Origin: an uncultured Bacteroidia bacterium
GTDB taxonomy: Bacteria > Bacteroidota > Bacteroidia > Bacteroidales > Prolixibacteraceae
Length of the DNA stretch: 64,000 nt
NCBI GenBank assembly: GCA_903850335.1
Contig: CAINLJ010000271.1
Coordinates: 62,001-126,000 of the forward strand
Direction of reading: 5' to 3'
Shown here: piece by piece, positions 30,751 through 45,879 of the stretch
Layout: each line of letters starts with the position of its first letter
Position numbering within the stretch: position 1 is the first letter of the stretch
Translations under genes and position numbers: made by a program
The notes under the pieces: model-generated
Databases searched by the model: none
The model's input: only the letters and a program-made list of their open reading frames with translations
Told to the model about the DNA's origin: nothing

Positions 30751-30936
30751 TTATTTTGAACTCAATATCAAATCTTTTAAGCATTCATTGCAAAGACATT
30801 CATCATAATGTGAGGCGATATATTCAATCGTTTCTTCGGGAACAGGCAAATCAAAACATGGGCAGTGAGGTGTTCCCGTACAAATATGCATATCTCCGCA
30901 TTTGGCGCAGGATACGGGATCAAACTTTGAATTCAT
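30751..30936 (-). CDS. Small Cys-rich CWC-family protein
   Basis: A 61-residue protein with eight Cys residues. The pattern C-x-x-C-G (residues 10-14), C (19), C-P-C (25-27) and C-L-C-x-x-C (48-53) fits the cysteine-rich CWC family, with Pro in place of the central Trp. The arrangement suggests a zinc or other metal site. The family's role is unknown. It is the last gene before the terminator, 21 bp after the reductase gene, so it belongs to the same transcript. Confidence 0.75.
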   Translation of the reverse strand: MNSKFDPVSCAKCGDMHICTGTPHCPCFDLPVPEETIEYIASHYDECLCNECLKDLILSSK

Positions 30937-30957
30937 TATTTTAAGTAAAAATTTAAA

Positions 30958-31617
30958 TTAAAAGAACACCTCTGTCCGAATATCTGACGGAAGAATTCCA
31001 CTTTCTTCAAGGAGTTCAGTAACCTCATTTACCATAGCTGAATTCCCGCAGATGTAGTATACTGAATCTTTTCTAATCCCGTGTTTCTTTAGATAACCGG
31101 TTACACGTCCATGATAATTTTCCCCATGCTCGCGCGATGTGCACAGATGATAGCAATCATTTTTAAAAGATCCGGATTCATAGCCCTCCTTGAGATACTT
31201 CACACCATGAATAATATCATAATCGAGCTCAGGATTGGATAAAATTATACTATGAAATGGTGATATCCCTGTGCCGGTTGCCACAAAAGTATAATGTTTC
31301 AACTGCTCATTCAGACTATCTCTAAGAACAAAGAAACCAAAGGGTCCTGTAATCTCAACTTTGGTTCCCACTTTGAGGTATTTAAGCTCCCTGGATACTT
31401 CACCAGTTTCAATTTCCTTGATTAACAGGTCAATAGTAGGGGATTCTTCAGGACTGTAAATGGAATATTCACGTGCCTTATATTCGCCAGGAACATTTAA
31501 AACAAGGTATTGCCCAGCTTTAAACTCAAAATCGGCTTTTTCTAATCGCAGGATATAAGTTGATTCAGTTATATTCTTTATTTCAAGTATTTTACTATAT
31601 GTTATCTTTTTCTTCAC
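30958..31617 (-). CDS. Ferredoxin/flavodoxin-NADP+ reductase-like flavoprotein
   Basis: A 219-residue protein with an FAD-binding beta barrel (about 1-100; REYSIYSP is the FAD motif near 49-56) and an NAD(P)-binding domain (GTGISPFHSI near 115-124, YICGNSAMV near 188-196). The C-terminal VFF aromatic end fits the flavin-stacking Phe of bacterial FNRs. It moves electrons between NADPH and ferredoxin or flavodoxin. It follows lipA by 11 bp. LipA is a radical SAM Fe-S enzyme that needs reduced ferredoxin or flavodoxin, so supplying its electrons is a reasonable but unproven role. Confidence 0.82.
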   Translation of the reverse strand: MKKKITYSKILEIKNITESTYILRLEKADFEFKAGQYLVLNVPGEYKAREYSIYSPEESPTIDLLIKEIETGEVSRELKYLKVGTKVEITGPFGFFVLRDSLNEQLKHYTFVATGTGISPFHSIILSNPELDYDIIHGVKYLKEGYESGSFKNDCYHLCTSREHGENYHGRVTGYLKKHGIRKDSVYYICGNSAMVNEVTELLEESGILPSDIRTEVFF

Positions 31618-31628
31618 TTTAAAATTAC

Positions 31629-32483
31629 TTAAGCATTTATATGTTTCTCAGCGTGGTACGAGGAGCGGACTAAAGGACTACTCTCAACCATACTAAATCC
31701 TTTTTGAATTGCCGCCTCCCGGTATTTGATGAATACTTCCGGTTTTACGAATTCTTCAATCTTAAGGTGATGTGAAGTTGGCTGAAGATATTGACCAATT
31801 GTCAACACCCTGCATCCTGCTTTGAGTAAATCATCCATTGTCTCAAATACCTCGTCTTCAGTTTCACCCAGACCAACCATAATTCCGGATTTAGAAACAA
31901 TCCCGGAATTTGATATAATCCCAATGACTTTAAGGCTTCTTTCATAACGCGCTATATCCCTGACTTTTGGCGTAAGTCTTCTAACAGTTTCAAGGTTATG
32001 TGATATAACCTCTGGTTTGGCATCAATAATTTGCTGAATCAACCCAGGATTAGCATAAAAATCGGGAATTAAAGTTTCGATAGTAATTCCAGGATTTATC
32101 TCCTTGATAGTCTTTATTGTAAGTGCCCAGAAAGCAGCACCTCCATCGTCCAGGTCATCCCGCGTTACAGAAGTTATTACACAATGTTTTATTTTAAGTG
32201 CCTTAATTGTTTCTGATAGCCTTTGTGGTTCTTCATAATCAACTGCATCCGGAATCATGTTTTTGACATCACAAAATCTGCAATTTCGGGTACATTTATC
32301 ACCTAATATCATGAAGCTTGCAGTAGATGCACCCCAGCATTCCGACTTATTCGGGCAGTTTCCACTTACACAGATCGTATTCAATTGCAGATTGGCTGCT
32401 AAATTTTTCAACTCAATATATTTCTTACCTGAGGGTAATGGGGTTTTCATCCAATCAGGTAGTCTGCGGGTTGTGGTACTCAT
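31629..32483 (-). CDS. lipA: Lipoyl synthase
   Basis: A 284-residue radical SAM enzyme that inserts two sulfurs into octanoyl groups on E2 and GcvH proteins. The auxiliary-cluster motif is CVSGNCPNKSEC (near 38-49) and the radical SAM motif is CTRNCRFC (near 64-71). The C-terminal auxiliary-cluster Ser is in SSPLVRSSYHA. Length is normal. It lies 53 bp after the mevalonate kinase gene and 11 bp before the reductase gene. Its presence at the end of a run that begins with a lipoate-dependent 2-oxoacid dehydrogenase E1 makes functional sense. Confidence 0.97.
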   Translation of the reverse strand: MSTTTRRLPDWMKTPLPSGKKYIELKNLAANLQLNTICVSGNCPNKSECWGASTASFMILGDKCTRNCRFCDVKNMIPDAVDYEEPQRLSETIKALKIKHCVITSVTRDDLDDGGAAFWALTIKTIKEINPGITIETLIPDFYANPGLIQQIIDAKPEVISHNLETVRRLTPKVRDIARYERSLKVIGIISNSGIVSKSGIMVGLGETEDEVFETMDDLLKAGCRVLTIGQYLQPTSHHLKIEEFVKPEVFIKYREAAIQKGFSMVESSPLVRSSYHAEKHINA

Positions 32484-32536
32484 AATTATTTTATATACTG
32501 TAAAATGACTATAAAATTTGATTTGTTTCTTTCAGA

Positions 32537-33460
32537 TTAAACAACAGAATATTCAAGTTGGTTTAAATTAAAGTATGATTCAGCCTTTCCCTTGTCAGAT
32601 GCAATGCCCAGAATATAACCTCCACCTCCTGATCCGCAAATCTTTAAGTAAAAATCACCGGTATTAATTCCATAAATAAAATGATTAATCATATGATCTG
32701 GAATAAGGTAAGAAAAGGTTGAAAGCTGAAATTTTGAATATTTCTCCAAATAGAATTCAAATTCAGGCAGATCATTTGATAACAGAGCATCGATTGTTTT
32801 ATTTATCAGTGGAATGTACTCGTTGTCAATCATCCTCTTAAAATTGCTCTCTTTATACCGTTCCAGAAAAAAACTGACAAGATTTCCGGTATTTCCTGGC
32901 AATTTCGAGTTTATTATAAATATGCAATAGGTTCTCCGAAATTGAGATAGATCAGTATCAGGTGCAGCCGGATATCGGTTATCAAACAGGATTGGCCTTT
33001 TTAACCACGACGTAAGTGGATCAATTCCCGAACTCATTCCATGAAAACAAGACTCAATTTTAGCCAGATTATCCTTATTTAACTGAATATCAGATTTATC
33101 TGTGCCATCGGAATACTTGTCATAAATTGCTGCGGTTAATGCTCCGGAACTTCCTAATCCTGAACCCGATGGAATTGAAGATTTAAAATAAATACCTTTC
33201 AGAATGTCCTTCTCAAGTTCAATAAGGTTTAGAAATTGAAACTCATCTGAGTGAACCTGGAGATAATCGTTTAATACCCGAAGTGAATTGCCTGACGCGA
33301 TCTCCAATGCCCTGTTTTGATTATCCCCTTCCTCAGGAAAAGTTAAATAACCTGAATAACGATAATAGGGAATAGACAAAGCCTTTGAGCCAAGAATAAT
33401 TCCATACTCGCCAAACAATATTATTTTTGAAGGGAAATCCATTTTAGTCAAACGATTCAT
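32537..33460 (-). CDS. Mevalonate kinase (GHMP family)
   Basis: A 307-residue GHMP kinase. Motif 1 is PSKIILFGEYG (near 10-20), motif 2 (the P-loop) is GSGLGSSGALTAA (near 98-110), and motif 3 is GSGGGGYILG (near 275-284). Motif 1 and context point to mevalonate kinase, ATP plus mevalonate to 5-phosphomevalonate. Start ATG 33460 overlaps the mvaD gene by 17 bp; an in-frame ATG at 33442 would remove the overlap and keep all motifs. The assignment between this and the other GHMP kinase in the run (34517-35446) rests on motifs, not on experiment. Confidence 0.78.
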   Translation of the reverse strand: MNRLTKMDFPSKIILFGEYGIILGSKALSIPYYRYSGYLTFPEEGDNQNRALEIASGNSLRVLNDYLQVHSDEFQFLNLIELEKDILKGIYFKSSIPSGSGLGSSGALTAAIYDKYSDGTDKSDIQLNKDNLAKIESCFHGMSSGIDPLTSWLKRPILFDNRYPAAPDTDLSQFRRTYCIFIINSKLPGNTGNLVSFFLERYKESNFKRMIDNEYIPLINKTIDALLSNDLPEFEFYLEKYSKFQLSTFSYLIPDHMINHFIYGINTGDFYLKICGSGGGGYILGIASDKGKAESYFNLNQLEYSVV

Positions 33461-34511
33461 TTGAAATTCTTTCAGGACCCTTACCTAAACAATCATCAAT
33501 CCATTGTCCATCCTCACAAAAACGGACCAGGTTATTTTGAACAAAAGACAGTACTTCTTCTCGCTGATCCTCAAAGTAGATAAGATGGACATTTGGACCT
33601 GCATCTATCGTGAAAAACAAATCCGTACCTGTCGATCTCCGATACTTTCTTACCTCCTCGATGATGCTCAATGTGCCAGGCTTTAATAATAACCCGTCAG
33701 GCTCCGAAGTCATTAAAAGTGCATGCAATGCCAGTGCTTCATTTTCAGCAGTATCGGCTAATGTTTTATAATCATCCTTGCGAATAGCTTCAATAATTTT
33801 TAGCATATTATCGTTCGCCTGAATTTTACGGCCGTCCCGGTAGGGGTGATAGTTCATCAAGGCATGCCCTTTACTGCTCGATACATTTTTTTCATTGGAG
33901 CTAACGATTAAGATGATATCTCTAATCGTGTTGAGCCTGCTTCCCGGATCAACAGGGTATGGAGTGGCATATTCGTCTGATGAATTTTCTAGTGAGGGAA
34001 TTTTGCCCCAGGTAACAAATCCTCCGTAGATTGATCTGGAAGCACTTCCTGATCCCAATCTAGATATAATTGAGGCTCTACGGAAAAAATCTTCGGTCTT
34101 TAACTTGTTAGCGCTAATATTTTCCTCCATTGTTACAAGGCAAAGTGCCAAAGCACACATAGATGAGGCAGACGAGGCAATACCGGCAGAGTGGGGGAAT
34201 GTGTTACTACTATGGAATATCAGGTCATAATCGGGTAAAAAAGGCATTTGTGATTTCAATGAATTGAGAAGTCTCTCGGTTTTACTCTCAAATGCAAGCT
34301 GCCTTTCCCCATGAAAATAATATTCAATACTAATTGTATTTTCTAAAGTTTGTTTCTTTTTATAGGTCAGAAATGTGGATGTTGTTGATTTGTTTAAGGT
34401 TAGGCTTAATGAACCATTTTCAGGAAGCTGATTGTCCCTCTTTCCCCAGTATTTTATCAGTGCTATATTCGAAGGGGCATTCCAACCAATTATTTTCGTG
34501 TCTTCGCTCAT
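33444..34511 (-). CDS. mvaD: Diphosphomevalonate decarboxylase
   Basis: A 355-residue GHMP-fold decarboxylase turning 5-diphosphomevalonate into isopentenyl diphosphate. The N-terminus has APSNIALIKYWGKRD near 12-26, the family hallmark. The phosphate loop is GIASSASSMCALAL near 110-123, with SRLGSGSASRSIYGG near 151. The catalytic Asp is in TIDAGPNVH near 300. It is 5 bp after the GYDIA kinase gene and overlaps the mevalonate kinase gene. Confidence 0.93.
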   Translation of the reverse strand: MSEDTKIIGWNAPSNIALIKYWGKRDNQLPENGSLSLTLNKSTTSTFLTYKKKQTLENTISIEYYFHGERQLAFESKTERLLNSLKSQMPFLPDYDLIFHSSNTFPHSAGIASSASSMCALALCLVTMEENISANKLKTEDFFRRASIISRLGSGSASRSIYGGFVTWGKIPSLENSSDEYATPYPVDPGSRLNTIRDIILIVSSNEKNVSSSKGHALMNYHPYRDGRKIQANDNMLKIIEAIRKDDYKTLADTAENEALALHALLMTSEPDGLLLKPGTLSIIEEVRKYRRSTGTDLFFTIDAGPNVHLIYFEDQREEVLSFVQNNLVRFCEDGQWIDDCLGKGPERISNESFD

Positions 34512-34516
34512 TGTAT

Positions 34517-35446
34517 TTATTGTTTTACAATCTCTTCAAATCTGAAAATTGTATTTAATTCTCTTTTCATAAAATAGTCCCGAACATATTCTTCCGTGGC
34601 GTTTGAAGCTACCAATATAAAATCGCCACCCCAGGCACCGAGTGATTTTATTGATCCCTTAAAATCATTGAATAATAATGATTTAACTGGTTTTATTTGA
34701 ATAATATCAGCAATAATTTCTTCATGTTTCTCCATAAGAAATTGAAATTCTTCCAATTCATTTGAAGCTTCAAAATCAAGAGTCAATTCTGAAAGCGCTA
34801 ATATTTGGTTCTGTTTTATACCCGAAATATCTGATTTAAGAACGCTCTCTTTAGAATTTTGCTTGCGATTAAGGTACACGAAGTAAAGTTTATCCTTAAA
34901 TACAGGATTAAACTTTGAAACCCGGAAGGAAGGCTTATTATCCTCGATCTGGTAGACTATTGGAGATGAAGACCTTGCGCAGGCTATATCATACCCGGAA
35001 CCATTGAATATCATATCATTAAGCTCAAACGGATCGCAATTTGCCCAAAAAGCAATATTGGAAATTAACGAACTGCTTGAACCAATTCCCCATAAAGGAT
35101 TAAAATCCATAATTGAGGTAACCTCAAATTCATCATGTCCAGTCAGGAAATCTGGATTTAGATTTTTTGCGTTGGCAAGTATTTGACTCAGTGTAACGGT
35201 AAGTTCCGGATTATTTGTTTCAATTACCTGAAAGTCGGGGAGGAGAAGTATATTTTTAAACCATAAATCATTACCAATTAATGATTTCCATATTAACTTT
35301 TGATCCCCTGGAGAAGTTGAAATTGACAGATTCTGGGTAAACTTTAGAGGCAAGGCAAGCGAGAGGGCCCCTTTAAGTACCGCGTATTCTCCGGTTAGCA
35401 TTAGTTTTGTTTGTGATGAGAATGATTCCATCTTTTCTAATTTCAT
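34517..35446 (-). CDS. GYDIA-type GHMP kinase, likely phosphomevalonate kinase
   Basis: A 309-residue GHMP kinase. Motif 1 reads KLMLTGEYAVLKG (near 14-26), the P-loop region is WGIGSSSSLISN (near 118-129) and a GYDIACARSSSP motif follows near 148-159, the hallmark of the Bacteroidota GYDIA group. GYDxA/GYDVA motifs also occur in ERG8-type phosphomevalonate kinases. In this cluster the other kinase looks like mevalonate kinase, so phosphorylation of 5-phosphomevalonate is the open step and this gene the best candidate. It overlaps the mvaA gene by 4 bp. Confidence in the family is high, in the exact reaction moderate. Confidence 0.75.
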   Translation of the reverse strand: MKLEKMESFSSQTKLMLTGEYAVLKGALSLALPLKFTQNLSISTSPGDQKLIWKSLIGNDLWFKNILLLPDFQVIETNNPELTVTLSQILANAKNLNPDFLTGHDEFEVTSIMDFNPLWGIGSSSSLISNIAFWANCDPFELNDMIFNGSGYDIACARSSSPIVYQIEDNKPSFRVSKFNPVFKDKLYFVYLNRKQNSKESVLKSDISGIKQNQILALSELTLDFEASNELEEFQFLMEKHEEIIADIIQIKPVKSLLFNDFKGSIKSLGAWGGDFILVASNATEEYVRDYFMKRELNTIFRFEEIVKQ

Positions 35447-36750
35447 ATTTTCCTTCTCACTGATTCAATGAAGTCATTAACTGCCGAATGACTGACAGTT
35501 TTACCGTTAAAATACTCGTTCGCAAGATTTCGCTCATTTGTGTCGGTGTGAAGCAGGTTCAGGATATTTGATAAATGCATTTTCATATGGCCGGATTGAA
35601 TTCCTGTTGAAACCAGCGAAGCGATGGCTGCAAAATTATTAGCGAGCCCTGAGGCTGCAGCAATCATCATGAGTTTTTGACTATCGGGATAATTCATTAC
35701 TGCCAGAGCGTTTTTCACCAGGGGATGCAGTCCGGTTATACCACCCACAGTACCTATTGCCAGGGGAAGATCAAGTTCATACCTGAATGTATCATCCGTA
35801 ATGGTGACGTTTGTTAATCCTCTGTATTTTCCGTCTCTTGATGCATAAGCATGAACACAAGCCTCTGTTGCCCTGAAATCATTACCTGCTGCCAAAAGTA
35901 CTGCGTCCACTCCATTACAAATCCCTTTATTATGGGTTACCGCTCTCGAAACATCAAGGTTTGCTATATCAACTGCTACTTTAATTTTATAAGATAAAGA
36001 ATTGTTTGTTAAGTCTTTATTCCATTCATTTAATTTTTCAACCGGACATTCTACCCAACATTTTACTCTGCAATCAGGCGTGTAATTAGACAATATAGAC
36101 ATAATTACTTCTACCTGCATATCGGCATTATTTAGCTCATCGAAGGATTTTAATAAATAAGCGAATTTTTCAAGGCAAGTATTTATAAAATTTGCGCCCA
36201 TTGCATTACCCGTCTCAAAACTTGCATCAAGTTGATAATACTGAGGTATTTCAGAAGTCTTATTTATAATAGATAAGTCAATGATTCCTCCGCCACGATT
36301 CCTCATTTTGTCAGTTAGTTCAGCCGTGCCCTCCAATAATTTTATTTTTATTCGGGGGAAAATCTGATTAAGGTAGTCAGGGTCGCCATTCCATGTAAAA
36401 TGTACTTGTCCTTTTTTTAAAGTGGAAATAATTTCAGCGTGGAATCCACCATGCCGGGCCCAGAATTTTGCAGCTTTTGAGGCCGCAGCCACAACAGAAC
36501 TTTCTTCAGTAACAAATGGTACAATGTATGACTCATTATTAATTACCATATTTGTGACGATTCCTATCGGAATGGGAAAATTACCAATATAGTTTTCAAT
36601 CATTTCGGTGTAAAGCCGCTGCTGATTTTCATCTGGCGCATTGTATTCCTTAAATTTAAGGGCATCTGAATCATTCAAATCAGAATGATTAACGATATAG
36701 TCGAGCCGTTGGCTAAGGCTAAATTTCGAGAATCCCGAGATTACACTCAT
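35443..36750 (-). CDS. mvaA: Hydroxymethylglutaryl-CoA reductase, class II
   Basis: A 435-residue class II HMG-CoA reductase with no membrane anchor. The catalytic Glu lies in ENYIGNFPIPIG/EESSVVAAAS (near 47-90), the Lys in THNKGICNGVDAV (near 272-284), and the Asp in AAGNDFRATEA (near 287-297). A GTVGGITGLHPLVKNAL segment near 342 is typical of the class. The enzyme links HMG-CoA and mevalonate; class II enzymes can work in either direction depending on the organism. Gene spacing: 9 bp after fni and 4-bp overlap with the GYDIA kinase. Confidence 0.94.
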   Translation of the reverse strand: MSVISGFSKFSLSQRLDYIVNHSDLNDSDALKFKEYNAPDENQQRLYTEMIENYIGNFPIPIGIVTNMVINNESYIVPFVTEESSVVAAASKAAKFWARHGGFHAEIISTLKKGQVHFTWNGDPDYLNQIFPRIKIKLLEGTAELTDKMRNRGGGIIDLSIINKTSEIPQYYQLDASFETGNAMGANFINTCLEKFAYLLKSFDELNNADMQVEVIMSILSNYTPDCRVKCWVECPVEKLNEWNKDLTNNSLSYKIKVAVDIANLDVSRAVTHNKGICNGVDAVLLAAGNDFRATEACVHAYASRDGKYRGLTNVTITDDTFRYELDLPLAIGTVGGITGLHPLVKNALAVMNYPDSQKLMMIAAASGLANNFAAIASLVSTGIQSGHMKMHLSNILNLLHTDTNERNLANEYFNGKTVSHSAVNDFIESVRRKI

Positions 36751-36759: not shown

Positions 36760-37821
36760 TTAAAGGGCTGGTTTTGGATTTCTAAGTGTCAGGTAATTTT
36801 GGGCCATTTTAAATCCCTCAATTTGTGTAGACACGAATTTTTGCAAAACAGAATATTCTCCCTGACTGTATTTAAGAAATGCCGATGCCTGCGCATATAT
36901 TGAAGGCAGAAGAGATTTTTGAGTCAGATAATAACCGTCGAGATAGTTATGTATGCCCCCTGAAATAATAAGTTGATTACAAGCAAATTTATTACCATTC
37001 AGCACCATATCATTGATTAAATCAATCATCTCTTCAGCTGATACTCCAATATTAACAAAGGGCCGGTGTAATTCTTGCTTTATGTCAGAACTACGTTGTA
37101 TTTCAACTTTTGCGAAGTTGGTTCCCCCGAAAGCACCAAATTCAATTGCTGTGAGTGGTAATTTTAAAAGTTTTTGGATGCTTTTGGGACCAAATCCCTG
37201 ACCGACTTCCTTTACAATTAGCTTAAAGTCTATTTTTTCAAGAAGTTTCTCAATTGTTTCTGATGGTGGATAATGAACGGTATTTCCTTCGGGCTGCACC
37301 CACTCCTGCAATGGATTTACATGAACGATTAATCCGTCTGCTTTTAGACTTGCAACAAGGCGCCTAAGCTTGTCTGTTTCATTTCGTTCCACCATTTGTT
37401 CGATCTGGGCAATACCTAAATTTGCAAAAAGTGGATTTTCGTCCCCTAATATCGAACGGACGTCAAAATCAGCAAAGTAGGTCTCTTCGCTAAGGAGCAT
37501 TCTGCAGGATCCCAACCCCATTCCCATCCCGAACTCTTTACAGGCCATGGCAAGGTTCCGGTTGATTTTACCAGACATCAGATGACCACCGGTCATACTG
37601 GATACCCAAATTGGAACTTTGATTTGTTTCCCTGCGAAGGGGATGCTATTCAAAGGTTCCGAAGGAAACCCGGCAACCATCGGTTCGTAATAAAACCTGC
37701 GATCTAATTCATTTACTAATGTTTGAGAATGAAGTGCAAGATTTATGTGGTCTGATTTTCTTTGTGAATCATCAGAAGCCTGTTCGCCTTGCAGATTATC
37801 ATTCTTGCTAATTTTAGTCAT
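36760..37821 (-). CDS. fni: Type 2 isopentenyl-diphosphate isomerase (FMN-dependent)
   Basis: A 353-residue type 2 IPP:DMAPP isomerase. Signatures: WVSSMTGGH (near 73-81), GMGLGSCR (near 98-105), HVNPLQEWVQPEG (near 157-169), KEVGQGFG (near 204-211) and FGAFGGTNFA (near 230-239). It needs reduced FMN. The first residues are polar and unconserved. It is the first mevalonate-side gene, 18 bp after the acyl-CoA dehydrogenase gene and 9 bp before mvaA, so it links the two halves of the run. Confidence 0.95.
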   Translation of the reverse strand: MTKISKNDNLQGEQASDDSQRKSDHINLALHSQTLVNELDRRFYYEPMVAGFPSEPLNSIPFAGKQIKVPIWVSSMTGGHLMSGKINRNLAMACKEFGMGMGLGSCRMLLSEETYFADFDVRSILGDENPLFANLGIAQIEQMVERNETDKLRRLVASLKADGLIVHVNPLQEWVQPEGNTVHYPPSETIEKLLEKIDFKLIVKEVGQGFGPKSIQKLLKLPLTAIEFGAFGGTNFAKVEIQRSSDIKQELHRPFVNIGVSAEEMIDLINDMVLNGNKFACNQLIISGGIHNYLDGYYLTQKSLLPSIYAQASAFLKYSQGEYSVLQKFVSTQIEGFKMAQNYLTLRNPKPAL

Positions 37822-37839: not shown

Positions 37840-38982
37840 TTATAAAACATGGCGTGAAATAACCATTTTTAATATTTCAGAGGTACCTTCACCAATAGAA
37901 AGCAGCCTCTGATCTCTGTAAAACCGTTCAATATGATTCGACTTCAGAAATCCGAATCCGCCATGGATCTGGAGTGATTCTCCAGCTATTTCCCTGGCAA
38001 TATCTGAACAATAGAGTTTAGATATAGCGGCTTGTTTACTGAAAGGCAGGCCTGCTTCTTTTAATCTGCAGGTGTGATAAAGTGTATTCCTTGCCAATTC
38101 GATTTTCATCGCCATTTCCGCGAGTTTAAAGGAAACAGATTGAAAATCTGACAATTGTTTGCCAAATTGTTTACGCTTTTGCGAATAATCCAACGCCATC
38201 TCAAAAGCACCCTGTGCCAGACCAAGACCGATCGCAGCTATTGACAACCGACCTCCGTCGAGTGTTGAGAGCATGATTTTCATACCTTCACCACGTTTGC
38301 CAAGGATATTGGAATCCGGAACCCGGCAATTCGTAAAAGTAAGCCTTCCGTTATCAACTGCACGCCACATCAATTTTCCTTTAACAGGCTCCGTTTCGTA
38401 TCCTTCAGTAGACCTGTCAAGCAGGATAGCCGACAGCTCCTTACGCCCATCTGTATGGCCTGTTATAGCCTGCACAGTTATGCCAGTTGCAATGGAGGAG
38501 CAACTGTTTGTTATAAACATTTTACTTCCATTGATAATCCAATGGTTATCTTCAAGATTTGCAACTGTTTCAACCCCCTTGGCATCAGATCCGGCATTAT
38601 CTTCTGTCAGTCCAAAAGCCCATAATTTTTCACCGGTGCATAATCCAGGAAGGTATTTCTTGCGTTGCTCTTCTGTGCCAAATGTATATATTGGATTTAT
38701 TCCCAATGAGTTATGTGCAGCGATTGTAGCTGCCGGTGAACTATCTACTCTGGCAAGTTCTTCAACAGCAATAATGTAAGAGACATAATCCAATCCCTGG
38801 CCGCCATATTCTTTTGGCAGTGTTATTCCAAATAATCCTTCATTACCCATTTTCAATGCTAAATCAATGGGAAATTCTTCATTTTCATCTTGCTCAACTG
38901 CTATCGGTTTTACGATGGTTTCAGCAAATGCCCTTACCTTATTCCGGTATTCAACATACCGTTTATCCAACAATTCATTCAT
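37840..38982 (-). CDS. Acyl-CoA dehydrogenase, probable branched-chain substrate
   Basis: A 380-residue FAD enzyme with the full acyl-CoA dehydrogenase fold: GLTEDNAGSDAKG near 126-138, KRKQFGKQ near 270, and IHGGFGF near 343. The catalytic base is Glu365 in SIGEGTSEI. That is the short/branched-chain (SCAD/SBCAD) position; classical isovaleryl-CoA dehydrogenases carry Gly or Ala there and a Glu in the LDxER helix, which here reads LDGGR. By context, just after the methylcrotonyl-CoA carboxylase gene (4-bp overlap), it would be expected to oxidise isovaleryl-CoA. Other candidates are 2-methylbutyryl-, isobutyryl- or butyryl-CoA. Confidence 0.88.
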   Translation of the reverse strand: MNELLDKRYVEYRNKVRAFAETIVKPIAVEQDENEEFPIDLALKMGNEGLFGITLPKEYGGQGLDYVSYIIAVEELARVDSSPAATIAAHNSLGINPIYTFGTEEQRKKYLPGLCTGEKLWAFGLTEDNAGSDAKGVETVANLEDNHWIINGSKMFITNSCSSIATGITVQAITGHTDGRKELSAILLDRSTEGYETEPVKGKLMWRAVDNGRLTFTNCRVPDSNILGKRGEGMKIMLSTLDGGRLSIAAIGLGLAQGAFEMALDYSQKRKQFGKQLSDFQSVSFKLAEMAMKIELARNTLYHTCRLKEAGLPFSKQAAISKLYCSDIAREIAGESLQIHGGFGFLKSNHIERFYRDQRLLSIGEGTSEILKMVISRHVL

Positions 38983-40982
38983 TTGTATTCCTCCAAAAAG
39001 ATTAGGGGCATTCGGTCAGTTACCTGAGCTCCTAAATTAACAGCAATTTTTTTTATCCTGGCATCTGTCGGTGAAATTATGCGATTCTCAGATTTCATCG
39101 CTTCAATTACAAACAGAAGGTCGCCTTTTTTTATTATTTGATTCTCTACAACATTAATTTCCAATATTTTACCATGTAAGGGTGATTTGATTTCACCATT
39201 CCCCAGTGCAAAATCGATTTCCATTTCATTTTTGACATCCGGATAGGTTTTTAGTTTCCCAGGGAAGGATAATTCGTATTGTATATTCTCCAAACATAAG
39301 CGCAGGAGATATTGATTATCAAAAATGGCAGAAATTCTTTTTGTTTCGTTATCTATTACTATATCCGCATAATTATGTGACTCAAAATCAATTTTAAAAT
39401 CAGTAGTTATTCCATTATATACAAAACCGAGACGGGATTTGTTCTTAATATCAGGTAAAATATGGTATTGCTCACCATCAATTGTTAAATAAATATTTTG
39501 TGGAATTGATCGCCAGTAACCTACATAACTCCATACATTGTGGGTATCAGTATAGCGATCAGGTAAATAAGCTTTGTAAATTGCAAATGCAATAAGATAT
39601 TTTAATTCAGGGAACCCGGGTTTTAATGTATAGTCTTTAACAAGTAAACTATGGTTGTTTTTACAGAAGTCTACCGATAGAATATTCTTTTGAAAGTCAG
39701 GATGTACCAATATTGACTCCAGATATTTGGTATTAGTCTGAGGACCAATTATATTCAGATTTTTAATATTTTCTTTGAGTAAATTGATTGCATTTTCCCG
39801 GTCATTTTCTGTCGCTATAATTTTGATAAGTAACGGATCAAAATTATTTTTAACCGATTGATTACTGGATATATCCGTTTCAATTCGCAGATTTATGAGT
39901 TCTGGTAGATTAACCGATAAGACAGGAACCGGCGAAGGAGTAAAGTCTTGCAAAGGATTTTCAGAATATATTCTCAACTCGATTGAATGGCCTGAAATGG
40001 TAACCTCACTCTGAGAGACGGATAAAGGAAAACCTGAGGCAATTCTAAGTTGCTCATTAACAATATCAATTCCTGTAATCTGCTCAGTAATTGCATGCTC
40101 AACCTGAATTCGGGGATTCATTTCCATAAAGTAAAAGTTTCCCGAATCATCTGCAAGAAATTCAACGGTTCCGGCTCCTGAATAATTTACAGCTTTTGCA
40201 ATTTTAATTGCGGCAGTATGAATTCGGGTCCGAAGTTCCTGGGTAAGAAATATTGCCGGTGCCTCTTCAATAATTTTCTGATGGTTACGTTGAATAGAAC
40301 ATTCCCTTTCGTATAAATGAATGATATTATTGTGATTATCACCAATTATTTGAACTTCAACATGACGTGCATTTTTAATGTATTGTTCAATAAATAGCTC
40401 ACCATTGCCAAAATAGTTCTTAGCCATTCTGGTTGCTTTCCCTATCTTTTCCTTTAACTCGTCAGGATTTTGTACTAATTCCATGCCTTTTCCACCACCG
40501 CCATAAGATGCCTTGATAAGAACAGGATATTGAAATAATTTATCATCCTGCAACATAAAATTAGGATCAAGTTTGTAACTTACAGCAATTGGAATATCAA
40601 GGCTAACAGCCAAAGATTTGGATTCAGGTTTGCTGCTCATCAGTTTAAGAACATCCGAAGAAGGACCAATAAAGGTAATATGATTCTCTTCGCAAGCCTT
40701 TGCAAAAAGGTAGCTTTCAGAAAGAAACCCATAACCCGGATGAATAGCCTGTGAACCGGTAGAAATTGCAATAGCGATAATATTATCAATATTCAAGTAA
40801 GTTGAATTAAGATCTTCACCCAGCAGAATTACCGATTCATCTGCATATTTTACAAAATCAGCCTCCTTCTCTGATTCCGTGTAAATAGCAACAGTTCTGA
40901 TTGAAGATTTTTTTGCCGAACGGATAATTCGTAAGGCAATTTCCCCTCTGTTCGCAATCAATATTTTATTCAATAATTTCAT
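38979..40982 (-). CDS. 3-methylcrotonyl-CoA carboxylase alpha (biotin carboxylase + biotin domain)
   Basis: A 667-residue two-domain subunit. Biotin carboxylase comes first: KILIANRGEIALRI (near 6-19), the Gly-rich ATP loop YGGGGKGMELV (near 159-169), and MNPRIQVEHAITE (near 289-301). A middle region precedes the C-terminal biotinyl domain with the acceptor Lys near 630 in EAMKSEN. Most such domains read AMKM; the Ser is unusual. It carboxylates biotin with ATP and bicarbonate and works with the beta subunit encoded at 41877-43445; the hydratase gene lies between them. The assignment to methylcrotonyl-CoA rests on the beta subunit. Confidence 0.9.
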   Translation of the reverse strand: MKLLNKILIANRGEIALRIIRSAKKSSIRTVAIYTESEKEADFVKYADESVILLGEDLNSTYLNIDNIIAIAISTGSQAIHPGYGFLSESYLFAKACEENHITFIGPSSDVLKLMSSKPESKSLAVSLDIPIAVSYKLDPNFMLQDDKLFQYPVLIKASYGGGGKGMELVQNPDELKEKIGKATRMAKNYFGNGELFIEQYIKNARHVEVQIIGDNHNNIIHLYERECSIQRNHQKIIEEAPAIFLTQELRTRIHTAAIKIAKAVNYSGAGTVEFLADDSGNFYFMEMNPRIQVEHAITEQITGIDIVNEQLRIASGFPLSVSQSEVTISGHSIELRIYSENPLQDFTPSPVPVLSVNLPELINLRIETDISSNQSVKNNFDPLLIKIIATENDRENAINLLKENIKNLNIIGPQTNTKYLESILVHPDFQKNILSVDFCKNNHSLLVKDYTLKPGFPELKYLIAFAIYKAYLPDRYTDTHNVWSYVGYWRSIPQNIYLTIDGEQYHILPDIKNKSRLGFVYNGITTDFKIDFESHNYADIVIDNETKRISAIFDNQYLLRLCLENIQYELSFPGKLKTYPDVKNEMEIDFALGNGEIKSPLHGKILEINVVENQIIKKGDLLFVIEAMKSENRIISPTDARIKKIAVNLGAQVTDRMPLIFLEEYK

Positions 40983-41030
40983 TATATTATTGATTAATAA
41001 TATTTTAAACTAATAAAAAGTTACTTGTTC

Positions 41031-41819
41031 TCAATTTTGCCATCTTGGTATTCTTTTTTCAAGAAATGCTGTAAATCCTTCCTGTGCCTCTTCAGAAACT
41101 CTGATATCTGCGAGAATTTTAGGGATATCCAGTTCCTTTTCGGATACACCTATTTCTGTAAGTCTATTAATTAGCTTTTTGGACTCTACTATCGCCTGAG
41201 TTCCATTTAATAATATCGAATGTAATTGCATTTCAATATAGGCATCCATTTCTTCAACAGAATTGAACGCCTGATTAACCAAAAGTAATTTTACTGCTTC
41301 ATCCCCATTAAAAATACGTGCGGTGAAGATGAGCTCCTTTAAAGATGAAGCATTAATTTTTTGGAGCAAATAAGGAGTTATTGATGCCGCTGCCATTCCA
41401 ATCCGTGTCTCGCTCAATGAAAATCTCGAATTGGAAACGCAATATGCAAGATCGCTGGCAGCAATAATCCCGTTTCCACCGCCAAAAACATTTCCATGGA
41501 TTGCCGAGATAATAACTTTGGGACAATTAAAAATATGACCAAACATATCGGATAATTCTTTACTTTCCCTTAGATTCTCATTTTTATCAAGAGTGAATGA
41601 TTTTTTCATCCAGGCAAGATCAGCTCCGGAACAGAAAGAATTACCCAGACCTCTTATAACCACAATCCTTATTTCTTTAATATGTTCAATTTCAAGGAAG
41701 AAAGAGGTAATTTCACGTATCATTACCTCGTTTAATGCATTATGAACCTCTGGCCGTGCAAGCCACAATGTTGCAATTTGCCCCTTGAAATCAGTTTTTA
41801 GTGTGAGGTAGTTTTCCAT
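41031..41819 (-). CDS. Methylglutaconyl-CoA hydratase-like enoyl-CoA hydratase
   Basis: A 262-residue crotonase-fold enzyme. The oxyanion-hole segments are CSGADLAWMKK (near 64-74) and GNVFGGGNGI (near 111-120); SETRIGM follows near 141. The SGADLxWM sequence and the short spacing fit LiuC-type methylglutaconyl-CoA hydratases, which turn 3-methylglutaconyl-CoA into (S)-HMG-CoA. It sits between the two carboxylase subunit genes, as in liu-type leucine catabolism clusters. Other enoyl-CoA hydratase activities cannot be excluded from sequence alone. Confidence 0.85.
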   Translation of the reverse strand: MENYLTLKTDFKGQIATLWLARPEVHNALNEVMIREITSFFLEIEHIKEIRIVVIRGLGNSFCSGADLAWMKKSFTLDKNENLRESKELSDMFGHIFNCPKVIISAIHGNVFGGGNGIIAASDLAYCVSNSRFSLSETRIGMAAASITPYLLQKINASSLKELIFTARIFNGDEAVKLLLVNQAFNSVEEMDAYIEMQLHSILLNGTQAIVESKKLINRLTEIGVSEKELDIPKILADIRVSEEAQEGFTAFLEKRIPRWQN

Positions 41820-41876
41820 TAGCTTAGGGAAAATAGTATTGAGGTTTTTGTTTTTGAATTGAGGATCTTTTATTAT

Positions 41877-43445
41877 TTACATCCTATATATACCACTTTT
41901 AGGTGAGGCAGATCTTGTGTTTGATGCTATTGAAATAGCCAGACCAACAACTATCCTTGTATTTGCCGGATCAATAATTCCGTCATCCCAGATTCTGGAA
42001 GTACTGAAATAAGCAGATCCTTCTTCTTCGAATCTTTGTTCCAGGTTTAGGCTTGATTCAGAAGTCGTTGATTTAATTGAATTTAACACATCCTGTGCCT
42101 GTTGACCACCCATTACAGCAATTCTAGAGTTGGGCCACATAAATAGAAAATCGGGATTATAGGCCCTTCCAGCCATTGCATAATTACCTGCTCCAAAGGA
42201 GCCGCCAATTATCACAGTTATTTTTGGAACTACAGCAGTGGCAACCGCATGAATTAATTTGGCTCCGTTACGTGCTATTCCTTCATGCTCATATTTTTTA
42301 CCTACAATAAAGCCAGAGATATTTTGCAGAAATAGAAGTGGAATTTTACGAAAATTGCAGATTTCAATAAAATGTGCTCCTTTTAATGCTGCCTCGGATG
42401 TAAGAAACCCATTATTTGCCAGAATGCCAACAGGAAAGCCTAAAATTCTGGAGTATCCCGTTATTAAGGTTGTTCCGTAATCCCGTTTAAATTCCTCAAA
42501 CTTACTACCATCAACTATTCGTGCGATTATTTCGTAAATGTCAACAGATTTCTTGAGATCAATAGGAGCAATACCATACAAATCGGAGGAATTATAAATT
42601 GGTTCTTCAATATTTTGCATATTCAAAACCTGTGAATCAACAGGTGGTATTAACTCGAATATATTCCTGCAAATCCGGATAGCATCGATTTCATTTTCAG
42701 CGAGGTGATCGGCGACACCTGAAATTCCAGTATGTACTAAAGCACCGCCAAGCTCCTCTGCTGTAACCTCTTCACCAGTGGCTGCCTTAACTAATGGAGG
42801 TCCGCCGATAAAAATTGTCCCTTGATTTTTGACAATTATTGTTTCATCACTCATTGCTGGCACGTATGCTCCTCCTGCAGTACACGAACCCATTACAATT
42901 GAGATTTGCGGAATTGCGGATGCAGACATTTGAGACTGGTTATAGAAAATTCGTCCAAATCCATCCCGGTCAGGAAATATTCTGGCTTGTTCTGGCAGAA
43001 AAATACCACCCGAATCTACAATATAAACACAGGGAAGGTGATTTTTAAGTGCAATTTCCTGACCCCTCAAATGTTTTTTTACAGTTTCAGAAATGTATGT
43101 ACCACCTTTAACAGTGGCATCATTAGCAATGATCATGCAAGATTTACCGTGTATTCTTCCGATCCCTGTGATAATCCCTGCAGATGGGAATTGATTATCA
43201 TATTGATCATAAGCGGCTAAAGGTGAAAGCTCCAAAAAAGGGGTATTTTCATCTGTCAGAAGCTCAATCCTTCTTCTTACGTCTAATTTTCCGCGCTTAA
43301 GATGCCTGATTACAGTTGGTTCCTGATCTCGATGGGTAACACTATTCATTGCAGAATAATACTTGTTAATCAGGTCAGAATACGAATCAATCCTGGCTTT
43401 AAACTGATCGTCAGTTACATCGATATTTGAATGGAGCTGTTTCAA
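41877..43445 (-). CDS. 3-methylcrotonyl-CoA carboxylase beta (carboxyltransferase)
   Basis: A 522-residue carboxyltransferase. It shares with known methylcrotonyl-CoA carboxylase beta subunits the segments GIITGIGR and IIANDATVKGGTY (near 92-124), YIVDSGG (near 145), FPDRDGFGRIFYNQ (near 157), GSCTAGGAYVPAM (near 188) and GGPPLVKAATGEEV (near 215). It transfers CO2 from biotin to 3-methylcrotonyl-CoA, giving 3-methylglutaconyl-CoA. It lies 13 bp after the E1 gene and 57 bp before the hydratase gene. The fit is better than to propionyl-CoA carboxylase beta. Confidence 0.92.
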   Translation of the reverse strand: MKQLHSNIDVTDDQFKARIDSYSDLINKYYSAMNSVTHRDQEPTVIRHLKRGKLDVRRRIELLTDENTPFLELSPLAAYDQYDNQFPSAGIITGIGRIHGKSCMIIANDATVKGGTYISETVKKHLRGQEIALKNHLPCVYIVDSGGIFLPEQARIFPDRDGFGRIFYNQSQMSASAIPQISIVMGSCTAGGAYVPAMSDETIIVKNQGTIFIGGPPLVKAATGEEVTAEELGGALVHTGISGVADHLAENEIDAIRICRNIFELIPPVDSQVLNMQNIEEPIYNSSDLYGIAPIDLKKSVDIYEIIARIVDGSKFEEFKRDYGTTLITGYSRILGFPVGILANNGFLTSEAALKGAHFIEICNFRKIPLLFLQNISGFIVGKKYEHEGIARNGAKLIHAVATAVVPKITVIIGGSFGAGNYAMAGRAYNPDFLFMWPNSRIAVMGGQQAQDVLNSIKSTTSESSLNLEQRFEEEGSAYFSTSRIWDDGIIDPANTRIVVGLAISIASNTRSASPKSGIYRM

Positions 43446-43458
43446 ATTTTGTGTTTTA

Positions 43459-45879
43459 TCAATCGTAAAGACCTGGATATTTTGTCGGGTTCACCTGGTG
43501 CATAATGTCATAAACTGCCTCAATCACGCTCTCTGTATTGGGTTTTGAAAAATATTCACCATCAGTTCCATATGCCCCCCTGTGAACTTTCGCCGAGAGT
43601 GTTTTTGGTGATGCCTCAAGATATTGAAATGCTTTTTGCTCTTCAATTACTTTTTGAAGCATATAGGCGGTGGCACCTCCAGGAACATCCTCATCGACGA
43701 AAAGTACTTTTCTGGTTTTCTGAACGGAACGACAAATTATTCTGTGAATATCAAAAGGAATAAGTGTTTGTACATCAATTAATTCAGCTGAAATGTTGAT
43801 TGCCCTTAATCTGTTTGCAGCACTATGTGCAATAGTAACATTCCATCCGTAAGTCACGATAGTAATATCCGTTCCTTCTTCGATAATTTCAGGTACCCCC
43901 AGTGGTACAGAAAATTCTCCAAGATTCTCAGGCAGTAGTTCCCGGATATAGTATCCTTTTAAAGGTTCAATCACAAGAGAAGGATTGTGTGCTTTTAATA
44001 ATGTATTGTAAAACCCGGCTGCCTGGGTCATGTTTCGTGGAACGCAAATATTTATACCTGTCATTGACCCCAGCAGCATTCCCATAGGTGACCCCGAATG
44101 CCACATTCCCTGTAGTTGGTGGCCTCTGGTTCTGATAATTAGTGGTGCAATTTGCTGACCGCTTGTTCGATAATATAAAGTTGAAAGATCATCCGAAATT
44201 GTAGGAAGTGCATACAAAAGATAATCAAGGTACTGAATCTCGGCAATTGGCCTAAATCCTCTGAGCGAAAGACCAATACCCTGACCAATTATAGTAGTTT
44301 CCCGGATTCCGGTATCCGAAACCCGGTGGACGCCATATTTTTCCTGCATTCCTTTCATTCCCTGGTTAACATCTCCCAATTGACCAGTATCTTCTCCGAA
44401 AGTGATTAACAATGGATATTTGGCAAAAAGGATATCAAAATTCAGGTTTAATACCTCATGAGCAGGAACTGAAACCGGGTCTGAAGCATAGACAGGTTTT
44501 ATTTCATAATTTGAATTAAAATGGTCTAAATCATTAAATATATGAGTATTATAATTCTCAAAACCATTTCTTTCAATTTTTGAAATCCAATTCAATAAAC
44601 CTCGTTTATTCTTTTGAAGAGCAGGAATACCATGCATAGACCGAAGTTGAGCCTTCGCGAGTGCCAACAGTTTTTTTCTAGTCGGGAAAGGTGCAGTAAG
44701 AACGGATTCTAATTCTTGAGTAATCTTCTCCTGGGCCGGACTATCCTCAATTCCAATTGTTTCGATTAGCTCTTTTAATTGTTGTTTCTCCTCATCAAAA
44801 TCTTGTATAAACGACTGCCATGCCAATTCTCTGGCCAGTCGTGCTCTTTCTGTAGCTTTGTTTTCAAGGGAAACCAGGGTCTCCTTATCAGTTATTTTTT
44901 CCTTGAGAATCCATTCCCGAAATTTATGAATCGGATCATGTGCTTTTTCCCATGCAATACGTTTATCGCTTTTATAGCGTTCGTGTGAACCGGAAGTCGA
45001 ATGGCCTAAAGGCTGCGTCAGATCTGTAATATGAAAAATGACAGGAATGTGATTCTTACGGCAAATTTCAATCCCTTTTTCAAAAGTCTTAATAAGGGCT
45101 GGATAATCATATCCGGCACAAACAAAAATTCTGCATCCTGCGTCTTTTCCATCTGCCTCAAATCCTTTTAATACCTTTGAAATAGAGCCTTTAGCCGTTT
45201 GAAGCTCTACTGGAACACTTATACCATATCCGTCGTCCCAAACGGCTAATGCCATAGGAACCTGAAGAACGCAGGCCGCATTAATTGTCTCAAAAAACAT
45301 CCCCTCGGATGTACTTGATTCTCCAATTGTGCCAAATGCAACTTCATTTCCAGTGATTCTGTTTTCAAGAAATTGTTTAAGTTCAGGATTTTCCCTTACG
45401 ATCTTTGATGCTTGAGCAAGCCCGAGCAGACGTGGCATTTGCCCTGCTGTTGAAGAGACATCAGACGAAGAGTTTTTTTGTGTCAATAAATTATCAAGTC
45501 CAATACCTTTACCATAAGTTTTGGTTGCGTGATGGTTATTAAAATTTCTACCGCCTGTTGATGGATTATTTTCAAGATCAGTATCCCCATAGATTTGAGC
45601 GAAAAACTCTTCAGGACTAAGTAATCCGGCAGCCATCATAAAAGTCTGATCCCGGTAATATCCTGATCTCCAATCACCTTGTTCAAAATATTTCGCATAA
45701 GCGACTTGTGCAAGCTCTTTACCATCCCCGAATATTCCAAAATGGGCACGTCCTGCATGAACTTCTTTTCTGCCTAAAATACTAAGTTGACGGCTTAAAA
45801 ACGCTGTGTAATAATCGTCAATAACACTCTCTTTTGTAATTGGTAACGATGATGATAGCTTGTCTTCTTCCAAATGCAT
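43459..45879 (-). CDS. Branched-chain 2-oxoacid dehydrogenase E1, alpha-beta fusion
   Basis: An 806-residue fusion of E1 alpha (about 1-400) and E1 beta (about 470-806), the Bacteroidota form. The alpha part has the TPP/Mg segment GESSTSEGMFFETIN near 206 and the phosphorylation-loop-like GHSTSGSHERY near 294. The beta part has TFGEDTG near 497 and a transketolase C-terminal domain with DVQTLIPFD near 716. It oxidatively decarboxylates branched 2-oxoacids such as 2-oxoisocaproate from leucine, using a lipoyl E2 and an E3 that are not in this window as dedicated genes. It is the first gene of the 45879-30751 run, 145 bp after ribH. Confidence 0.85.
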   Translation of the reverse strand: MHLEEDKLSSSLPITKESVIDDYYTAFLSRQLSILGRKEVHAGRAHFGIFGDGKELAQVAYAKYFEQGDWRSGYYRDQTFMMAAGLLSPEEFFAQIYGDTDLENNPSTGGRNFNNHHATKTYGKGIGLDNLLTQKNSSSDVSSTAGQMPRLLGLAQASKIVRENPELKQFLENRITGNEVAFGTIGESSTSEGMFFETINAACVLQVPMALAVWDDGYGISVPVELQTAKGSISKVLKGFEADGKDAGCRIFVCAGYDYPALIKTFEKGIEICRKNHIPVIFHITDLTQPLGHSTSGSHERYKSDKRIAWEKAHDPIHKFREWILKEKITDKETLVSLENKATERARLARELAWQSFIQDFDEEKQQLKELIETIGIEDSPAQEKITQELESVLTAPFPTRKKLLALAKAQLRSMHGIPALQKNKRGLLNWISKIERNGFENYNTHIFNDLDHFNSNYEIKPVYASDPVSVPAHEVLNLNFDILFAKYPLLITFGEDTGQLGDVNQGMKGMQEKYGVHRVSDTGIRETTIIGQGIGLSLRGFRPIAEIQYLDYLLYALPTISDDLSTLYYRTSGQQIAPLIIRTRGHQLQGMWHSGSPMGMLLGSMTGINICVPRNMTQAAGFYNTLLKAHNPSLVIEPLKGYYIRELLPENLGEFSVPLGVPEIIEEGTDITIVTYGWNVTIAHSAANRLRAINISAELIDVQTLIPFDIHRIICRSVQKTRKVLFVDEDVPGGATAYMLQKVIEEQKAFQYLEASPKTLSAKVHRGAYGTDGEYFSKPNTESVIEAVYDIMHQVNPTKYPGLYD

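Follow-up and report, generated by a model that had tools for sequence, protein, structure and literature searches.

A conserved gene run joining leucine breakdown to the mevalonate pathway in Bacteroidales: a possible leucine-to-isoprenoid operon

The window analysed here is a stretch of 64,000 nucleotides from an uncultured member of the Prolixibacteraceae; the genome assembly consists of 284 contigs and has a completeness of 95.6%. An ORF check of the window found thirteen ORFs running from 45879 down to 30751 on the minus strand, each in the place given by a preliminary description, which had proposed a possible leucine-to-isoprenoid operon and left its direction open. In run order, followed by the stem-loop at the 3' end, the features are:

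43459..45879, minus strand: 2-oxoacid dehydrogenase E1, alpha and beta fused, 806 aa (E1_dh, Transket_pyr, Transketolase_C)
41877..43445, minus strand: methylcrotonyl-CoA carboxylase (MCC) beta, MCCb (PDB chain scores)
41031..41819, minus strand: LiuC-like crotonase, putative methylglutaconyl-CoA hydratase (best NCBIfam matches PRK07468 and gamma-carboxygeranoyl-CoA hydratase)
38979..40982, minus strand: methylcrotonyl-CoA carboxylase alpha, MCCa, biotin carboxylase plus biotinyl domain (Pfam)
37840..38982, minus strand: acyl-CoA dehydrogenase (ACD), putative isovaleryl-CoA dehydrogenase (Pfam)
36760..37821, minus strand: type 2 isopentenyl-diphosphate isomerase (IDI2), divergent (TIGR02151, 187 bits)
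35443..36750, minus strand: HMG-CoA reductase (HMGR), class II type (TIGR00532, 260.5 bits, cut-off 259.95)
34517..35446, minus strand: GYDIA family GHMP kinase, candidate phosphomevalonate kinase (NF040656, 343.7 bits, cut-off 225)
33444..34511, minus strand: diphosphomevalonate decarboxylase MvaD (TIGR01240, 165 bits)
32537..33460, minus strand: mevalonate kinase (MVK) (TIGR00549, 81 bits)
31629..32483, minus strand: lipoyl synthase LipA (TIGR00510, 337.8 bits, cut-off 310)
30958..31617, minus strand: ferredoxin reductase-like flavoprotein (NCBIfam matches, all under cut-off)
30751..30936, minus strand: cysteine-rich CWC protein, 61 aa (PF14375)
30697..30735, no strand assigned: stem-loop with 16-pair stem and T run, where the genes meet the convergent yidC

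Successive genes are separated by gaps (positive) or overlaps (negative) of 13, 57, 48, -4, 18, 9, -4, 5, -17, 53, 11 and 21 bases, the leucine half lying 18 bases from the mevalonate half, and the spacing of at most 57 bp described earlier was thus confirmed, 57 bp being the largest gap. The strong terminator-like site on the minus strand is at the 3' end (30735-30697), and those within the run are two weak ones, one inside the E1 gene and one inside the GYDIA gene; terminator-like sites over the region were at chance level (11 found vs 12.3 expected). Promoter scans were uninformative, with 71 sigma-70-like sites between 30000 and 47500 (60.4 expected, sd 8.5) and 8 window matches to TTTG-TANNTTTG, which we take to be the Bacteroidota-type promoter motif (5.1 expected; 16 of 100 shuffles as high). 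Co-transcription of the thirteen genes and a flow of carbon from leucine to IPP are predictions.

The gene names proposed earlier agreed at family level with Pfam and NCBIfam, with caveats for E1, ACD, the hydratase, MvaD, mevalonate kinase and the isomerase. The E1 subunit (an E1 is the first gene in 9 of the 45 fused loci) matched pyruvate and branched-chain E1 chains in the PDB alike, a score that cannot separate it from pyruvate dehydrogenase E1, and its probable use of branched-chain 2-oxoacids is assigned by genomic context. MCCb scored 564-620 bits against PDB chains named methylcrotonyl-CoA carboxylase beta, compared with 419 bits against geranyl-CoA carboxylase and at most 262 bits against typical propionyl-CoA carboxylases, although its top three chains (623-653 bits) bear other names (carboxyl transferase, AccD1 and the propionyl-CoA carboxylase 9tps). 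For the LiuC-like protein, the PRK07468 and gamma-carboxygeranoyl-CoA hydratase models of NCBIfam were both under cut-off, the nearest PDB entry was an unspecified enoyl-CoA hydratase (142 bits vs 69 bits for human methylglutaconyl-CoA hydratase), and identity drops to 30-36% in many fused loci. ACD scored 359 bits against short-chain/butyryl entries and no more than 239 bits against entries named isovaleryl-CoA dehydrogenase. Key residues were counted by alignment columns, which replaced a regular-expression motif count that had proved too strict. With this method, Glu 137 of LiuC was conserved in 38/40 relatives, the biotin lysine of MCCa (position 630) in 43/43, and the Glu of the ACD motif IGEGTSE in 45/45.

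The same counts for the mevalonate half gave HMGR E83, K275 and D291 in 54/54 relatives and H388 in 53/54 (this Glu, Lys, Asp and His presumably being the catalytic residues), Ser 105 and Asp 147 of mevalonate kinase in 46/46, Asp 303 of MvaD in 49/50 and the QE motif of the isomerase in 42/44. The last three proteins fell below the cut-offs of their models (TIGR00549, 163 bits; TIGR01240, 171 bits; TIGR02151, 281 bits). An AlphaFold model of the GYDIA kinase (pLDDT 93.5) matched mevalonate and phosphomevalonate kinases, phosphomevalonate kinase being its candidate role. LipA trails the run in four genera, the window's own together with g5, g8 and g13, and is present in 16 of 45 fused loci; a homologue of the ferredoxin reductase-like protein is likewise close by in 16 of the 45.

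The synteny comparison suggested in the preliminary description showed the run order to be conserved. Relatives whose HMGR identity is as low as 43% repeat, on a single strand, the order MCCb-LiuC-MCCa-ACD-(IDI2)-HMGR-GYDIA-MvaD-MVK, which is therefore not a product of chance. The reductase has leucine genes immediately upstream of it in the window and in 45 of the 54 relatives with this reductase, 38 of the 45 having all four (MCCb, LiuC, MCCa and ACD), and the linkage is present across five families of the order. Among 72 genomes of the family, 43 contained both carboxylase and reductase, 28 neither and one the carboxylase alone; the two were thus concordant in 71, and the sole exception is cut by a contig end. 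Both states are found side by side in five genera. The distances of HMGR and of MCCb were correlated (r 0.94, 38 loci), and a midpoint-rooted FastTree phylogeny of 110 tips required three changes of fused state, five of the nine order tips labelled unfused being contig-cut and hence of uncertain label (L064, L088, L096, L097 and L098). As the Fisher tests ignore relatedness, the within-genus contrasts and the tree are the better evidence.

Searches for the enzymes on either side of HMG-CoA, also suggested earlier, returned no HMG-CoA synthase passing any model and no HMG-CoA lyase above cut-off in the window's genome. The search employed bacterial/eukaryotic and archaeal synthase models plus a profile for Bacteroidota, each alongside positive controls, the class sample being searched without the archaeal model. 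Across 119 genomes, PF08540 matched none, and PF01154 matched only in G083 and G118, the same two in which alone TIGR00748 was above cut-off; both are without the reductase. The Bacteroidota profile recovered 13/13 positive genomes (408-815 bits), 7 of which had not been used in building it, G219 and G410 among those coming from profile genera; the 13 synthases were themselves picked by model, and three scanned against NCBIfam fell under cut-off. In the order sample it matched no genome among the 59 with a reductase, that of the window being one of them. No lyase was above cut-off in any of the 119 genomes (window's best 43 bits, cut-off 246), and divergent matches of 100-203 bits were seen in seven. 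Lyase-like genes were found in 0/46 fused genomes vs 6/17 other carboxylase-bearing genomes; in G076 and G110 such a gene follows ACD and MCCa, respectively, in the position taken by isomerase and reductase in fused runs. The window's genome has the reductase of a classical bacterial mevalonate pathway, with its presumed catalytic residues, and no detected synthase; it has the methylcrotonyl-CoA carboxylase of a leucine catabolic (Liu) operon, in the run itself, and no detected lyase.

These results support the proposed operon, and the comparative tests favour the direction from leucine to IPP. It is probable that the run serves as a shunt of leucine through HMG-CoA into IPP and DMAPP. A branched-chain 2-oxoacid dehydrogenase, with E1 from the run, E2 and E3 presumably encoded elsewhere and LipA aiding lipoylation, would convert the keto acid of leucine to isovaleryl-CoA, which ACD would oxidise to 3-methylcrotonyl-CoA. 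MCC would add CO2 to yield 3-methylglutaconyl-CoA, the LiuC-like hydratase would form HMG-CoA, and the reductase would release mevalonate for conversion to IPP and DMAPP by mevalonate kinase, GYDIA (as phosphomevalonate kinase), MvaD and the type 2 isomerase. At family level the set from isovaleryl-CoA to IPP is complete in the run, with the substrates of ACD, LiuC and GYDIA being the probable ones. As the CO2 added by MCC is the carboxyl removed by MvaD, the five carbons of isovaleryl-CoA should arrive intact in IPP. Since no synthase was detectable, HMG-CoA is likely to come from leucine (or isovalerate), and since no lyase was detectable either, it is likely to pass on to the reductase. This reading draws on observed gene content, linkage, conservation and absences at the sensitivity of the models, and supposes the substrates of E1, ACD and LiuC, the function of GYDIA, co-transcription and flux. 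That ACD and LiuC, by sequence comparison, are not closest to proven isovaleryl-CoA dehydrogenases and methylglutaconyl-CoA hydratases counts against it, as do the drop in LiuC identity across fused loci, the model-based choice of the positive synthases and the incompleteness of the window's genome assembly.

It could be argued that a divergent, undetected synthase makes HMG-CoA from acetyl-CoA, the leucine genes being merely co-regulated neighbours. This would account at once for the many unfused reductase clusters of the class in which no synthase was seen, and the window's genome does contain weak ketoacyl-synthase-like matches (TIGR00748, 45 bits). However, the best of these is a ketoacyl synthase III by Pfam, synthase models of all three kinds were run with positive controls, and neither the joint gain and loss of carboxylase and reductase nor the missing lyase-like gene in fused genomes would be explained, making a hidden synthase improbable. 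A plain catabolic role, in which leucine is broken down for energy and for primers of branched fatty acids and the mevalonate linkage is incidental, is less probable still: the genes for MCC, hydratase and ACD belong to the standard set for leucine catabolism and occur together with lyase-like genes in G076, G097 and G110, but catabolism would halt at HMG-CoA in all 46 fused genomes, since none has a lyase-like gene, and the linkage persists in five families.

The myxobacterial alternative isovaleryl-CoA pathway begins with synthase-made HMG-CoA and has AibAB as its methylglutaconyl-CoA decarboxylase. A run operating in this reverse sense, from HMG-CoA to isovaleryl-CoA for branched fatty acids, would need a synthase, which was not found in the window's genome, and would oppose the direction in which ATP drives MCC, the kinases and MvaD. 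Although such a pathway is ascribed to Myxococcus in the portion of the literature consulted (PMC7321100, citing Li et al. 2012), this explanation is the most improbable of all and can hardly be entertained.

The preferred reading, a leucine shunt, has parallels in other organisms. Halobacterium salinarum and Leishmania mexicana presumably retain an HMG-CoA synthase. Labelling established in both the same course from leucine through HMG-CoA to mevalonate, bypassing acetyl-CoA (PMC8791446, PMC6832408), the parts of these sources consulted mentioning no operon, whereas here a gene run is seen, no synthase was found and the evidence is genomic. In the eukaryote Trypanosoma brucei, deletion of isovaleryl-CoA dehydrogenase abolishes leucine incorporation into sterols, which, according to the excerpts consulted, are also fed by acetate, glucose and threonine (PMC5993337). 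A bacterial case comes from the unrelated myxobacteria, in which labelled dimethylacrylic acid enters the sesquiterpene sorangiadenosines and acetate gives no significant shift; the consulted part of that report mentions leucine degradation and the alternative isovaleryl-CoA pathway and no joint mevalonate operon (PMC7321100). Closer in phylogeny, the Bacteroidota Elizabethkingia anophelis and Flavobacterium branchiophilum are described, in the extract consulted, as having all known mevalonate enzymes except phosphomevalonate kinase and no MEP enzymes (PMC4026382); unlike the present run, none of the reductase clusters examined outside the order is fused with leucine genes. Leucine-derived isoprenoids are already known elsewhere, and the operon-encoded, synthase-less version appears new within the literature searched.

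One group of Bacteroidota thus probably builds isoprenoids directly from leucine. The leucine shunt was previously an entrance to isoprenoids known from feeding experiments; as no synthase was found upstream and no lyase as a competing exit, and the run is kept or lost as a unit, the genomic evidence suggests that the mevalonate pathway is entered mainly or solely by this route. A clean prediction is that [U-13C6]leucine will give M+5 isoprene units. If true, this would account for mevalonate users that may be overlooked when surveys insist on a synthase, and would provide an operon from nature with which terpenoids could be made from amino acids with the carbon skeleton retained.

A complete MEP pathway had been named in the preliminary description as evidence against such a role, and this was partly encountered: IspH, by which alone the MEP pathway was assessed, is present in the window's genome and in 42/43 module-bearing family genomes. 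The run is therefore probably not the organism's only source of IPP, which does not change the presumed product of the module. In the fused G103 and the unlinked G102, no IspH, synthase or lyase was found, which speaks in favour of the shunt. Counting against it, G056, G081, G087 and G106 of the order have another reductase type only, with no synthase found. Outside the order, no synthase was detected in 66/79 reductase-bearing genomes (archaeal model left out) and 0/51 loci with this reductase type were fused to leucine genes, so either the lack of a synthase is independent of fusion or there is an unknown synthase. Among the 51 unfused loci, six matched ACD or MCC-alpha by itself and never together with MCCb or LiuC; the four named records L111-L114 were unfused as well. 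A further point against the shunt is G111, in which a reductase cluster is present with no synthase, true MCC or lyase match. A general Bacteroidia design, in which a synthase-less mevalonate pathway is fed by amino acids, one order has made of it a C5-conserving operon and some members apparently lacking the MEP pathway (G102 and G103) make every isoprenoid from leucine only, is conceivable, with the chances slightly against it. Ten annotated neighbour families of the unfused reductase clusters were considered as a hidden synthase; they comprised a POT transporter, UbiA, a DPPIV peptidase, thiamine pyrophosphokinase, a thioredoxin-like protein, proline dehydrogenase, phosphofructokinase, a secretion-tail protein, RlmN and one matchless family. 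In the fused loci, a UbiA-family gene adjoins the mevalonate genes in 7 of 45, which speaks for the shunt.

The family scans matched the gene names of the preliminary description, and the thirteen minus-strand genes that it had placed in one run were found from 45879 to 30751 with spacings of -17 to +57 bases. A strong stem-loop carrying a T run closes it, beside a convergent yidC gene. The run comprises the following parts:

run 45879-30751 as a whole, minus strand; its first five genes (family scans): leucine half, encoding E1, methylcrotonyl-CoA carboxylase beta (MCCb), a LiuC-like hydratase (LiuC), carboxylase alpha (MCCa), and an acyl-CoA dehydrogenase (ACD)
same run, minus strand, next five genes (family scans): mevalonate half, encoding isomerase, HMG-CoA reductase, GYDIA kinase, diphosphomevalonate decarboxylase (MvaD), and mevalonate kinase
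same run, minus strand, last three genes: lipoyl synthase, a flavoprotein, and a CWC protein

The genome assembly (5.5 Mb, 284 contigs, 95.6% complete) has as its nearest named records by isomerase (74-80% identity) metagenome assemblies titled Bacteroidia, Bacteroidales, Prolixibacteraceae, and Mariniphaga sp. The window carboxylase scored 564-620 bits against solved methylcrotonyl-CoA carboxylases, compared with 262 bits or less against typical propionyl-CoA carboxylases; three chains with other names scored slightly above the methylcrotonyl-CoA carboxylases. The dehydrogenase matched short-chain enzymes better than it matched isovaleryl-CoA dehydrogenase, the hydratase resembled unspecified crotonases more closely than the human methylglutaconyl-CoA hydratase, and the E1 score fits a pyruvate or a branched-chain enzyme alike. 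As these scores do not single out the substrates of the three enzymes, they were assigned from context. The usual biotin-site motif is AMKM; in MCCa (window 40982-38979 and 43 relatives) the forms are mostly EAMKS, ESMKS, or ESMKT-like, with Met directly after the biotin lysine in just five of the 43. Reading of translations alone also placed biotin carrier and sodium-pump decarboxylase beta-like genes at window 213-1816 and a 2-oxoglutarate dehydrogenase-like E2/E1 pair at 16333-20333.

Among the 119 genomes of the order sample, a reductase was present in 59 (the window's included), 55 with the window type and four (G056, G081, G087, and G106) with another type only. In 45 of 54 relatives the window-type reductase is preceded, on the same strand and within 10 kb, by at least one leucine gene, and in 38 by all four. 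The nine relatives without one comprise five with a short upstream contig (G032, G084, G114, G116, and G117, the last with its leucine genes elsewhere in the genome) and the unfused G076, G102, G109, and G111. True MCCb (at least 57% identity) occurs in 54/55 genomes with the window-type reductase vs 9/64 others (Fisher 4e-23, relatedness ignored). Within the window's family (72 genomes), carboxylase and window-type reductase are both present in 43 and both absent in 28 (G056, with the other reductase type only, being entered here); none has the reductase alone, and one, G017, has the carboxylase alone, on a contig that stops 106 bases past the MCCa match. Both states occur inside five of the family's 23 genera, which suggests more than one event of joint gain or loss of the two halves. 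At fused loci, those with a leucine gene closely upstream of the reductase, reductase distances correlated with those of MCCb (r 0.94, n=38) and ACD (r 0.86, n=44), with 0/999 permutations as high in either case. Active-site residues are conserved in relatives: reductase Glu, Lys, and Asp in 54/54 and His in 53/54, MvaD Asp in 49/50, biotin Lys in 43/43, and LiuC Glu in 38/40. A second, dissimilar reductase type was seen in G002, G014, G056, G081, G087, G103, G106, and G109 (L001-L008, L099-L104); the six of these loci with longer flanks (L099-L104) have none of the window's other genes close by.

HMG-CoA synthase and lyase were sought in the same 119 genomes. PF08540 detected HMG-CoA synthase in none, while PF01154 and, above cut-off, the archaeal model TIGR00748 each matched only G083 and G118. 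TIGR00748 scored below cut-off in 104 further genomes (71 bits or less); Pfam assigns the best match in the window's genome (45 bits) to ketoacyl synthase III. A Bacteroidota synthase profile was built from six sequences, three of which were checked and had the prokaryotic HMG-CoA synthase as best NCBIfam match, below its cut-off. This profile recovered all 13 positive-control genomes chosen by PF08540 in the class sample, at scores of 408 to 815 bits; seven of these genomes were outside the profile, two of the seven sharing a genus with profile members. It found no synthase in the order sample's 59 reductase-bearing genomes, the window's included. HMG-CoA lyase was above cut-off in 0/119 genomes, the window genome's best match reaching 43 bits. 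The leucine half is therefore the single visible source of HMG-CoA in the window's genome, and the reductase its single visible sink. The archaeal-type synthases of G083 (L233, next to a crotonase and a biotin protein with a PYC/OADA domain) and G118 (L234, where the neighbours are a thiolase and an OB-fold protein) occur in genomes that gave no match to HMG-CoA reductase or to IspH, and the isoprenoid source of these two is a puzzle.

Divergent lyase matches of at least 100 bits were found in seven genomes (G076, G088, G097, G104, G110, G116, and G117). A lyase-like gene follows ACD in G076 and MCCa in G110, the position held by isomerase and reductase in the fused run, and two lie 1.7 kb past ACD in G097. 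Such genes occur in 0/46 fused genomes vs 6/17 others with true MCCb (n=63; Fisher 2e-4, relatedness ignored; the 17 include the contig-cut G017 and G032). Within the order, cleavage and reduction of HMG-CoA thus look like alternatives.

In the known chemistry of these steps, methylcrotonyl-CoA carboxylase adds the carboxyl that ends up free in HMG-CoA; as C1 of mevalonate, this carboxyl then leaves at the MvaD step. All five isovaleryl-CoA carbons should therefore pass unbroken to IPP, which predicts M+5 isoprene units from fully labelled leucine. For phosphomevalonate kinase, a known gap in Bacteroidota (PMC4026382, PMC4148732), the obvious candidate is the GYDIA kinase, present in 52/54 reductase clusters of the order sample and 42/51 outside it. 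Its AlphaFold model (pLDDT 93.5) resembles mevalonate kinases and also, at match ranks 4 and 6, the S. pneumoniae phosphomevalonate kinase, although its sequence profiles lead to mevalonate kinases. A Flavobacterium psychrophilum reductase has been assayed, with NADPH preferred (PMC13370337, preprint).

IspH was found in the window's genome, and in 42/43 module-bearing genomes of its family, so the module is probably a second IPP source there. It was not found in four reductase-bearing genomes: G003 (68% complete), G102, G103, and G117. The fused G103 and G102, in which the halves lie apart, both gave no synthase or lyase match and are the best candidates for supply from leucine only, the MEP pathway being judged by IspH alone. 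A UbiA-family gene lies among the mevalonate genes of 7/45 fused loci (L049, L052, L055, L060, L083, L089, and L090), in L052 (13484-14422) between mevalonate kinase and lipoyl synthase; the two proteins scanned (L052 and L090) are MenA-like, below NCBIfam cut-offs. Prenylated quinones are therefore one possible use of the module.

Isoprenoids from leucine are already known in Halobacterium and Leishmania as a 'leucine shunt' (PMC8791446), in trypanosomatids (PMC6832408, PMC5993337), and in myxobacteria (PMC7321100). A review of bacterial isoprenoid pathways reports most analysed Legionella species to lack the synthase, and its main text does not contain the word 'leucine' (PMC13001223). No description of a leucine-mevalonate run in Bacteroidota was found in titles and abstract openings among the matches listed, which barely cover subscription journals; within this literature, the Bacteroidota gene-run form appears new.

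The reductase cluster of G111 (L094: reductase, GYDIA, MvaD, and mevalonate kinase, behind a gene whose translation reads as groEL-like) is unexplained, no synthase, true methylcrotonyl-CoA carboxylase, or lyase being matched in that genome. Outside the order, in the class sample, a synthase was found in 13 of 79 reductase-bearing genomes and in none of the other 66, single-contig G252 and G312 among them, apart from one 22-bit scrap in G230; fusion was seen at 0/51 loci with a window-type reductase. Either leucine feeds the pathway more widely, via unlinked genes, or an unknown synthase exists. At ten loci from two families outside the order (L161-L165, L167, L168, and L174-L176), POT-family transporter genes lie near reductase and GYDIA, joined in nine of the ten by a DPPIV-type peptidase gene.
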